The notes beneath the pieces were generated by a model. It made no database searches and was not told where the DNA came from. It saw only the letters and a list, made by a program, of their open reading frames with translations. A stretch of 64,000 bases of DNA from Erysipelotrichaceae bacterium. Lineage in GTDB: Bacteria; Bacillota_I; Bacilli_A; Erysipelotrichales; Erysipelotrichaceae. Positions 47,241 to 63,124 of the stretch are shown one piece after another. Position 1 is the stretch's first letter, and the number at the start of each line of letters is the position of its first letter. Where the stretch lies: positions 41,897 through 105,896 of the forward strand of contig WSYG01000001.1 in assembly GCA_009773735.1 (NCBI GenBank). The letters are read 5' to 3'. Position numbers and translations under genes: made by a program.

Positions 47241-49832
47241 TTATTTTCCGTTAAGTTTGAGTAACTTAGCAACTTCAACAACCACGATCGGCATCAATGA
47301 TAAAGCGATGATGACTTCCCAGTGTTCAAAGTCAATCGGGACTACTTTAAATAAAGTATTGACTCCTGGAATAAACAAGACTGCCATCATCATCCCAACA
47401 TTGATCACAGTGGCACCAATCAACCATTTGTTGATGAAGAATGAACCTACGACAGATTTGGAATTGGAGTGAATATTGTATGAATGGGCCAATTGACTAA
47501 AGGCCAAAACACTAAAGGCCATAGATCGTCCGAGTTCTAGTGATCCTTCGATCCATAATCCACCTGATCCATATAAGTAGGCAAATATGGTTAAACCACC
47601 AATCATGAGTCCTTGATAAGAGATACGATAAACCATGGATTTATTTAATAATGATGTATCGCGATTAGGCAATCTTTTCATGATGCCGCTTTGTGCAGGA
47701 TCTACACCAAGCGCTAAAGCAGGAAGACTATCCGTAACAAGATTGATCCATAAGATATGAATAGGCAGTAAAGGTGAATCCCAGTTTAAGATGGTTGCGA
47801 TCAATAAGACCGACAATTCTCCAACATTACAGGATAGTAGATAACTTATTGCTTTACTGATGTTGTCTCGTATACGACGTCCTTCTTCGACTGCATGCAC
47901 GACTGTGGCGAAGTTATCATCTGCCAAGACCATATCAGATGCCCCTTTGGCAACTTCAGTCCCTACGATGCCCATAGCCGCTCCAATGTCGGATTTCTTT
48001 AAAGCTGGAGCATCATTGACACCATCTCCAGTCATCGCTACAATTTCACCATGCTTTTTCCAAGCATCGATGATGCGCATCTTATGTTCAGGAGATACTC
48101 TGGCATACACAACGATTTGTTTGACTTGATCAAATAGATCTTGATCGCTCATTTCATCGAGTTCATTGCCGGTAACGACACGATCTCCTTCCAACATCAA
48201 ACCAATCTGACGTCCAATCGCTTCAGCTGTTGTTTTATGATCACCTGTAATCATGATCGGACGTATGCCTGCACTGCGACATTCTTCTATGGCAACCTTG
48301 ACTTCTTCTCGAGGTGGATCGATCATTCCCATAAGCCCCACAAATGTCATGTGTGCTTCAACAGATTGATCGCCATCCTTAATGACCTCATTGAGTTCAC
48401 GCTTCGCTAAAGCCAAAACACGCAAAGCTCTGCGTCCCATGTCTTCATTGGCATTTTGAATGTTTTGTCGATCTTCATCTGTAATTGGACGTTTTTGTGA
48501 CCCAGAAGCGATATGTGTTACACCCGCTAAGATTTCATCGACTCCGCCTTTGATGTAGGCGATAAATTTATCTTCAACTTGATGAACCGTTGTCATTTTC
48601 TTACGACCAGAATCAAAAGGTACTTCAGCTACTCGTGGATAACTTTCCTCAATCATCTGTTGATCCATATCTGACTTAATGGCCCATTCAGAAAGTGCTG
48701 TTTCAGTTGGATCGCCAACCCAAGAACCATCGATCAAACGAGCATCATTACATAAGAAAGCCCCTTTTCTTAATTCCCTAAGATTATCCTCATGACTGAT
48801 CCAATAATCAGTAACCGTCATTTTATTTTGAGTCAAGGTCCCAGTTTTATCGGAACATATGATGGTTGCCCCACCTAAAGTCTCAACACTGGACAAATTG
48901 CGTATGATCGCATTGCGTTTCGCCATACGTTGAACACCCATCGCCATAACGATGGTTGCGACGGCAGGTAAACTTTCCGGAATGACTGCTACTGCTAAAG
49001 AAACAGAAGTCAAGAATAACTCCAAGATTTCTCTTTGATTGATTAGACCAATTACGAAAATCAAGACGACTGAAACCACAGCCCCAACACCCAATACTTT
49101 TCCTAAATGATCCAGTTTTTTCTGTAAAGGCGTTTGTTCATTGGGAGTTCCTGTCAACATTTTCGCGATTTTGCCGACTTCTGTATCCATGCCTACACCG
49201 ATGACCAAACCTGTTGCCCGTCCATAAGTAACATTGGATGAGGCATATGCCATATTTTTACGATCACCTAAAGATGCATTTTCAGATAAGATCAATTCAG
49301 CTGATTTATCAACCGGGACAGATTCTCCAGTCAATGAAGATTCCTGGATTTGCGTACTGGATGTTTTGATCAAACGAACATCAGCCGCAACTTTATCACC
49401 TGCTTCAAGCATTAATATATCGCCTACCACAACATCCTTTGAAGGAATAATTGTTTCTTGCGCATTGCGTCTTACTTTCGCCATTGGCGCAGACATTTCT
49501 TTTAATGCAGCCAAAGCTTTCTCAGCTTTATTTTCTTGCAGGATGCCTAGTAGTGCATTAAGAATAACGATGGCCATGATGATCATCGCATCTGTAACTT
49601 CACCTAAAAAACCAGAGATGACAGCTGCCGCAATCAAAATCAAGATCATCGCATTGTTGAATTGTTCAAGCAATAGGATAAAAAACGATTTCTTCTTGCC
49701 TTCATCAAGTTGGTTTTCACCATTGTCTTGTCTTGACTTTAAAACTTGATCAGAATTAAGTCCTTGTTGGACATCGATTTCTGATAATACATCGATCAAC
49801 TTCTTTTCATGCCATTTTACTTGTTTACTCAT
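47241..49832 (-). CDS. P2-type cation-transporting ATPase (annotatable as Ca2+-ATPase; Mn2+ efflux likely from leader)
   Basis: ICSDKTGTLTQNKMTVTD, AVIPESLPAVATIVMAMGVQRMAKR, MTGDGVNDAPALKKSDIG. Confidence 0.93.
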   Translation of the reverse strand: MSKQVKWHEKKLIDVLSEIDVQQGLNSDQVLKSRQDNGENQLDEGKKKSFFILLLEQFNNAMILILIAAAVISGFLGEVTDAMIIMAIVILNALLGILQENKAEKALAALKEMSAPMAKVRRNAQETIIPSKDVVVGDILMLEAGDKVAADVRLIKTSSTQIQESSLTGESVPVDKSAELILSENASLGDRKNMAYASSNVTYGRATGLVIGVGMDTEVGKIAKMLTGTPNEQTPLQKKLDHLGKVLGVGAVVSVVLIFVIGLINQREILELFLTSVSLAVAVIPESLPAVATIVMAMGVQRMAKRNAIIRNLSSVETLGGATIICSDKTGTLTQNKMTVTDYWISHEDNLRELRKGAFLCNDARLIDGSWVGDPTETALSEWAIKSDMDQQMIEESYPRVAEVPFDSGRKKMTTVHQVEDKFIAYIKGGVDEILAGVTHIASGSQKRPITDEDRQNIQNANEDMGRRALRVLALAKRELNEVIKDGDQSVEAHMTFVGLMGMIDPPREEVKVAIEECRSAGIRPIMITGDHKTTAEAIGRQIGLMLEGDRVVTGNELDEMSDQDLFDQVKQIVVYARVSPEHKMRIIDAWKKHGEIVAMTGDGVNDAPALKKSDIGAAMGIVGTEVAKGASDMVLADDNFATVVHAVEEGRRIRDNISKAISYLLSCNVGELSVLLIATILNWDSPLLPIHILWINLVTDSLPALALGVDPAQSGIMKRLPNRDTSLLNKSMVYRISYQGLMIGGLTIFAYLYGSGGLWIEGSLELGRSMAFSVLAFSQLAHSYNIHSNSKSVVGSFFINKWLIGATVINVGMMMAVLFIPGVNTLFKVVPIDFEHWEVIIALSLMPIVVVEVAKLLKLNGK

Positions 49833-49856
49833 ATTGCTCCTTGATGGTCTAAAAAT

Positions 49857-49967
49857 AAAAGACCTTACCCCAAAAAAAATGATAAAGTCTTGAGATTTTG
49901 ATACGTCCGGACCTAAGTCGTGTTGACGAAACGGATCACCTTTACGGCCTCTACTCCCTTTAGCGAT
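49857..49967 (-). ncRNA. yybP-ykoY (Mn2+) riboswitch-like leader with terminator
   Basis: Minus strand: CTAAAGGGAGTAG...TTTCGTCAACACG...CTCAAGACTTTATC (P1 TAAAG/CTTTA), then AAGACTTTATC/GGTAAGGTCTT terminator and T-rich tail. Confidence 0.85.
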
Positions 49968-49970
49968 TCC

Positions 49971-49999
49971 ATATTATCATTTTTACATGTTTTAGTCAA
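49971..49999 (-). promoter_or_regulatory. Sigma-A-like promoter of P-type ATPase leader
   Basis: TTGACT-17 nt-TAATAT just upstream of the aptamer. Confidence 0.7.
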
Positions 50000-62411: not shown

Positions 62412-62437
62412 AAAAAAACCAGAACTTTCTGGTTTTA
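62412..62437 (-). terminator. Terminator of mntP
   Basis: AAAACCAGAAAGTTCTGGTTTTTTT on minus strand. Confidence 0.75.
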
Positions 62438-63004
62438 GATAAGATGGTCGATTAAGATTTTAATTCCGATACCAATCAAGACAAGACCACCTACGATTTC
62501 GGCAGTATTATCTATCAGAGCTGCATATCGTTTTCCAATCATGACCCCAATAATCGATAATATTAAGGTAACAAAACCTATAATCAATGAAGTCGATAAG
62601 ATGTTTGTGGTCAATAACGCTAAACTGATCCCTACGGCCAAAGCATCAATGCTGGTCGCAATCGAGACCCCTAACATTGCCTTTAGATCCGTTGATGGCT
62701 CAACCTCACAGCTTAGATCTTTAGGTTGAAATCCCTCATAAATCATTTTTGCACCAATGGCGGACAAGAGTATAAATGCGACCCAGTGGTCAAATGAGTT
62801 GATCAATGAACTAAATGTTAAGCCTAAATAGTAGCCTCCCAAAGTCATGATCGCTTGAAAGAAACCAAAATAAAGCCCTACTTTAAACGCAAATCTAAAA
62901 CGAGGATCTTTAGTACACAAACCCTTTACCATAGCCACAGCAAAAGCATCCATAGATAATCCAACACCTATAATTAATATTGAAACGAGATCCATACTTC
63001 TCAC
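62435..63004 (-). CDS. mntP: manganese efflux pump MntP/YtaF family
   Basis: LIIGVGLSMDAFAVAMVKGL and ATSIDALAVGISLAL (paired D-containing repeats). Start may be ATG 62995. Confidence 0.9.
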   Translation of the reverse strand: MRSMDLVSILIIGVGLSMDAFAVAMVKGLCTKDPRFRFAFKVGLYFGFFQAIMTLGGYYLGLTFSSLINSFDHWVAFILLSAIGAKMIYEGFQPKDLSCEVEPSTDLKAMLGVSIATSIDALAVGISLALLTTNILSTSLIIGFVTLILSIIGVMIGKRYAALIDNTAEIVGGLVLIGIGIKILIDHLI

Positions 63005-63011
63005 TTTCCAG

Positions 63012-63124
63012 CAAATAAAAAATCATGTTTGCTGTGAATATGAGTCTCTTTGTTTAAGGTTTGCCAGATGATGAATCACCGGGTTGTTGACAAAACCGCA
63101 CACTGTGCCAAGTACTCCCTCATA
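63012..63124 (-). ncRNA. yybP-ykoY-like Mn2+ riboswitch candidate upstream of mntP
   Basis: Minus strand: TATGAGGGAGTAC, hairpin GCAC-AGT-GTGC, TTTTGTCAACAAC, AAAGAGACTCATA (P1 TATGAG/CTCATA), then CAGCAAA...TTTGCTG expression-platform hairpin before mntP. Confidence 0.7.

Follow-up and report, generated by a model that had tools for sequence, protein, structure and literature searches.

The leader of a P2A-type cation ATPase gene in the window, by which we mean the whole 64,000-nucleotide stretch of Erysipelotrichaceae DNA analysed here, is very probably a three-way-junction yybP-ykoY (Mn2+) riboswitch that serves as a transcriptional ON switch for the pump, which would export the metal. Read from the sequence, the minus strand carries, in order, a promoter, the aptamer, a terminator, a ribosome site and the ATPase gene (Table 1). 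The mechanism is a known one, with precedent on the same kind of gene, and the leader adds a new example to it. A first-pass annotation of this DNA had named a promoter (TTGACT-17-TAATAT), an aptamer-like leader closed by a TAAAG/CTTTA P1 and a terminator alternative to P1 with a T-rich tail, and had read these as a yybP-ykoY switch under Mn2+ control. The promoter and the P1 closure were located as claimed, the terminator was found as an 11-bp stem overlapping the 3' strand of P1.1, and the layout matches the expected transcriptional ON switch; the class itself is borne out by the structure of the leader and its covariation, by the L1/L3 core, which is conserved, and by the downstream genes. 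Class, ON layout and Mn2+ control are thus backed, and the part of the earlier interpretation that did not hold is its view of the pump as an Mn2+ exporter rather than a Ca2+ pump.

Table 1. Features of the two leaders and their genes in the window (positions counted from the first letter of the window)
Feature	Position	Strand	Basis or remark
Promoter: TTGACT (49999-49994), 17 nt, TAATAT (49976-49971), extended -10 TG	49971..49999	-	sequence; hexamers and spacing to P1 recur within the genus
yybP-ykoY-type aptamer, three-way-junction (P4-less) form	49883..49962	-	R1 match, covariation, pairs checked
P1.1 TAAAG/CTTTA	49962-49958/49887-49883	-	pairs checked
L1 GGAGTA (GGAGUA)	49957-49952	-	3' strand of L1 is AAGA
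P1.2 GAG/CTC	49951-49949/49894-49892	-	pairs checked
P2 GCC/GGT	49948-49946/49940-49938	-	pairs checked
P3.2	49937-49929/49908-49900	-	pairs checked; one mismatch
L3 CGTCAACAC	49920..49928	-	sequence
P3.1 GAC/GTC	49919-49917/49912-49910	-	pairs checked
Intrinsic terminator AAGACTTTATC / GGTAAGGTCTT, 11-bp stem 49891-49881/49869-49859, U-rich tail TTATTTTT	49851..49891	-	
Ribosome site AAGGAG	49842-49837	-	ahead of ATPase start at 49832
P2A-type cation ATPase, 863 aa	47241..49832	-	Pfam, NCBIfam; would be annotated 'Ca2+' pump
Promoter-like TTGACA-17-TAGAAT	63163-63135	-	by eye
Second yybP-ykoY-type aptamer	63038..63123	-	R1, 50.2 bits, E about 2.8e-11
Hairpin of the P1.1 3' strand (CUCAU) of the second switch with ribosome-binding region GGAAAGUGAG	62999..63044	-	fold
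mntP, Mn2+ efflux pump family, 186 aa from ATG	62435..62995	-	PF02659 Mntp, 172.8 bits

Aptamer structure and class membership

We built a 90-position covariance model, R1, from 34 ATPase leaders in genomes outside the genus of the window (alignment A1); these were aligned with MAFFT without use of structure, so that the alignment was not fitted to the covariation result. Four helices (P1.1, P1.2, P3.2 and P3.1) covary in A1. Across the 34 leaders P1.1 is 95% paired, through A-U, U-A, G-C and C-G types, and P1.2 is 96% paired, the P3 helices being less cleanly aligned than P1. Paired cells amount to 80.7% compared with 59.1% after shuffling and the covariation score is 0.62 compared with 0.24, a signal that collapses once the partners slide by one column. 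The covarying pairs of P1.1, P1.2 and P3 form in the window as well; the mismatch and G-U pairs in its P3.2, together with the lack of a P4 helix, were counted against the class reading. Applied to the held-out window, R1 matched 49962-49881 with 62.0 bits (E about 1.8e-14 in 64 kb, a rough value owing to the short calibration of the model). R1 also recovered the two E. coli switches, alx with 32.8 bits and mntP with 30.5, which ties the window leader to proven members by homology in both sequence and structure. On sequence, structure and covariation together the leader belongs to the yybP-ykoY class, an assignment that we regard as practically certain.

An ordinary terminator or attenuator leader with a chance resemblance to yybP-ykoY would agree with the lack of an Rfam match and with the folding energy of the leader alone, which was no better than that of shuffles (z -0.19). 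Single-sequence folding of the aptamer (z -0.19 and +0.84) was uninformative, however, and an unremarkable energy is what would be expected of a small tertiary-structured aptamer. Given the held-out R1 match and covariation, the conservation of the leader among same-genus genomes while its flanks diverge, and the consistent transporter context, a chance resemblance is scarcely credible.

Both the conserved L1 (GGAGUA) and an L3 with the metal-sensing adenosine occur in the window leader, in which CAAGAC is also present alongside the GGAGTA loop and CGTCAACAC. The L3 adenosine and the C preceding it were invariant in 34 of 34 training leaders. In published structures the Mn2+-sensing adenosine is the A of GUCA in L3, namely A41 in L. 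lactis and A48 in X. oryzae (PMC9190785, PMC6754395), and the L1/L3 core is shared with L. lactis yoaB (4Y1I; PMC9190785). Judged by this motif, on which the mapping rests, the A at 49924 is the equivalent of A41 and A48.

No P4 helix was found between 49900 and 49894 of the window aptamer, which is therefore a three-way junction. In contrast, the L. lactis yoaB aptamer has four helices including P4, and E. coli mntP and alx, although matched by R1 like the window, carry an extra hairpin in the place of P4. P4 is variable in the yybP-ykoY class rather than obligatory. The idea that its loss is peculiar to the genus of the window was rejected, as P4-less forms are common in ATPase-linked leaders and one is described for pneumococcal mgtA in a review (PMC9495176).

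Expression platform and switching

Taken alone, the promoter match is no more than chance would give, with 2 such matches found where 1.7 are expected. Its hexamers and their 8-nt spacing to P1 recur in same-genus leaders despite diverged flanks, with TTGACT and TGATAA retained in two same-genus genomes and TTG...-17-TATAAT found at an equal distance from P1 in three others. The RNA should start near 49964, one or two nucleotides before P1.1.

The terminator has an 11-nt loop and a fold z-score of -3.7, and was overlooked by a simple terminator scan because the loop limit of that scan is 8 nt. Its 5' arm, AAGACUUUAUC, holds the entire 3' strand of P1.1 together with the 3' strand of L1, and terminator and P1.1 are therefore mutually exclusive. 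The leader thus places mutually exclusive pairings ahead of a cation pump gene, with an expression platform in which P1.1 competes against a terminator. Ligand-free energies were -19.0 kcal/mol for the terminator plus partial aptamer and -9.8 kcal/mol for the full aptamer; the terminator is favoured when ligand energy is left out, and the default state would therefore be OFF. Among the ATPase leaders of relatives, a U-rich-tailed terminator using the P1.1 3' strand was present in 37 of 51, compared with 10 of 255 shuffled controls. From this arrangement we consider a transcriptional ON switch highly likely.

At low metal, the P1.1 3' strand (CUUUA) and the flanking AAGA of L1 would be drawn into the 11-bp terminator, and transcription would end about 20 nt ahead of the ATPase start codon. 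As cytosolic Mn2+ rises, the ion would link L1 to L3 through the adenosine of GUCA (49924), and docking of the two helical legs would keep P1.1 closed, so that the terminator is blocked and the ATPase transcribed; the pump would then export the surplus metal, most likely Mn2+ and possibly Ca2+ too. Stabilisation of P1.1 against a terminator by Mn2+ is the published mechanism (PMC6754395, PMC11087558), shown for L. lactis and X. oryzae, and L. lactis yoaB is likewise an ON switch that sets P1.1 against a terminator and has an Mn2+ efflux gene downstream (PMC9190785). E. coli mntP, by comparison, is described as a translational switch (PMC11647493), whereas the ATPase leader of the window looks transcriptional.

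Sensitivity of RF00080

The first-pass annotation had set a match to RF00080 as the check on the class and its absence as a refutation. The check was negative: RF00080 gave no match in the window at the Rfam gathering threshold, none in the leader at E <= 10 and none in the whole genome at E <= 0.001. Across 60 relatives it returned only sub-threshold matches, in 11, and none over the cut-off. At threshold it also missed 20 of 20 similar ATPase leaders from other Bacillota, and in Rfam 15 it stays below the gathering score on the mntP and alx leaders of E. coli K-12, two Mn2+ switches established in the literature (PMC11647493, PMC7266159). The negative result therefore carries little weight, the lack of an RF00080 hit is a poor criterion of refutation, and a match is not a valid defining test of the class; RF00080 was dropped as the decisive test after the negative result, having been shown to be insensitive. 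Other Rfam families searched on the leader at E <= 10 gave only weak chance matches that fell well short of the respective cut-offs, and none of these was another metal riboswitch.

The missing RF00080 match would also fit a yybP-fold variant with a changed ligand that responds to a divalent ion other than Mn2+, and specialists expect that some variants of the yybP motif may sense other divalent ions (PMC7266159). The GUCA adenosine, the GGAGUA of L1 and P1.2 are intact, however, and a sibling switch lies upstream of mntP, which makes such a variant improbable. Mn2+ is very likely the physiological ligand, for which the genomic context is well supportive.

A different Rfam family, RF02617 (SSRC10, 'Streptococcus sRNA 10'), catalogued as a small RNA and not as a riboswitch, picks out the same leader with 46.3 bits in Companilactobacillus and more weakly in Erysipelothrix, though not the window leader itself (E <= 10); the matches cover the ATPase riboswitch leader at 1778-1896 of locus L110 and 1842-1963 of L047. 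In S. pyogenes, SSRC10 precedes a 'putative calcium transporter' (PMC3675131). What RF02617 lists as an sRNA is thus probably the leader of an Mn2+ riboswitch, ended at its terminator and wrongly classified.

A second aptamer upstream of mntP

The second R1 match lies directly upstream of mntP, 13 kb from the ATPase leader, and the two matches in the window are the only ones in this Erysipelotrichaceae genome. Its P1.1 3' strand can form a stable hairpin (-17.7 kcal/mol, z -2.96) with the ribosome-binding region, and no clear terminator was found, for which reason we read this copy as probably translational. The same element occurs on mntP in two same-genus genomes (G001 and G002), where the mntP leader looks like a terminator. 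An mntP gene was located in seven genomes of the genus; in each of them it sits on the contig that carries the ATPase leader, and in four the two lie within a few kb of each other. The earlier proposal of Mn2+ control gains added support from this context, the only other copy in the genome being on mntP and the contig being shared in 7/7. The genes downstream of the two copies, a P2A ATPase and MntP, were both counted as genes of Mn2+ homeostasis.

Matches in relatives

Besides the two in the window, R1 matched 118 places, spread over 66 of the 80 genomes of the order. BLAST comparison with the proteins of the window sorted the downstream genes into 51 ATPases, 33 MntP and 34 others, so that 84/118 matches precede an ATPase or MntP gene, and every match in an ATPase locus was upstream of the ATPase on its own strand. 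The 34 others, assigned by eye, were mostly CaCA-type exchangers, CNNM/CorC-like proteins, and phosphate-type and other ion transporters.

Some matches stand before genes that are not commonly counted among the Mn2+ exporters, as judged by eye from translations. These include phosphate-type transporters (L191, L205, L252), flotillin-like proteins (L213, L245), ArsB-like transporters (L193, L232, L264) and CNNM/CorC-like proteins (L152 and similar loci), and possibly reflect wider Mn2+ regulons or ligand variants. A pair of tandem CaCA-type exchanger genes is preceded by two switches, L157 and L166 (G017:C44), which lie about 1.2 kb from each other; this arrangement suggests duplication of a switch-gene unit.

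Cargo of the ATPase

The best solved relative of the ATPase is the Listeria Ca2+ pump LMCA1 (lmo0841, 9euq). The protein falls below both NCBIfam equivalog cut-offs for Ca2+ pumps (673.5 vs 798.3 for the PMR1 type; 663.4 vs 703.4 for the SERCA type). It has the P2A fold, and its metal ligands are E286, N669, E672, N697, T700, D701 and Q780; in SERCA numbering, all SERCA-type ligands are retained except E908, which is replaced by Q780, so that Mn2+ and Ca2+ cannot be told apart from the sequence. The Mn2+-selectivity residue Q783 of yeast Pmr1 is absent, with L706 in its place, a point against the Mn2+ reading. We compared residues in 38 riboswitch-linked and 38 unlinked ATPases; the linked proteins keep E309, E771, N796, T799 and D800 throughout, whereas the unlinked ones vary at T799 and D800, and nothing in the comparison separates Mn2+ from Ca2+. 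Reading ion selectivity from residues was therefore rejected.

The closest precedent is S. pneumoniae mgtA (caxP; Martin et al. 2019, as described in PMC9495176 and PMC11434433), likened here by description, in which a three-way-junction yybP-ykoY aptamer likewise stands before a P-type cation ATPase; the window region differs in carrying a second switch, on mntP. According to these papers, the pneumococcal aptamer is Mn2+-activated (PMC9495176) and has a higher affinity for Ca2+ than for Mn2+, although in vitro Mn2+ is the stronger activator of transcription (PMC9495176, PMC11434433), and the pump is treated as an Mn2+ failsafe exporter under an Mn2+/Ca2+-responsive switch (PMC11434433). The statement 'Mn2+ exporter rather than Ca2+ pump' is thus too strong, since the Ca2+-pump ligands are kept and the nearest studied system involves both ions. 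A leader of the same class that acts as a dual Mn2+/Ca2+ sensor for an Mn2+/Ca2+ pump, as in MgtA/CaxP, would accommodate these points and the relationship to LMCA1. Set against it are the position of the only other switch copy, on a gene of an Mn2+ exporter family, and the scores of the ATPase, under every NCBIfam Ca2+-pump cut-off; we hold the dual system to be a serious but clearly less likely alternative. The residues being undiscriminating and the pneumococcal equivalent being treated as an Mn2+ failsafe exporter, we favour Mn2+ export if a single function is to be named, while Ca2+ may be both a second cargo and a second ligand. With the riboswitch and mntP linked to it, the pump is likely to carry mainly Mn2+.

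Implications

Together the ATPase and mntP make up a probable regulon of two genes for Mn2+ efflux. It is conceivable, though rather unlikely, that the ATPase-linked leaders without P4, in Erysipelotrichaceae as in other Bacillota, are a functionally distinct subtype tuned to Ca2+ plus Mn2+, or to a metal ratio, and separate from the mntP-linked copies in the same genomes; if so, this genus would have both kinds of switch, separated by 13 kb and with different expression platforms. Annotation pipelines that rely on the RF00080 cut-off will miss these regulons, whereas with the simple R1 model 66 of 80 genomes yield likely Mn2+ switches. What this example adds to a known mechanism is the paired mntP switch and the demonstration that in this setting the family escapes the public model. 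In an uncultured lineage, a pump normally annotated as a Ca2+ ATPase can thereby be assigned a probable metal control and a probable cargo.
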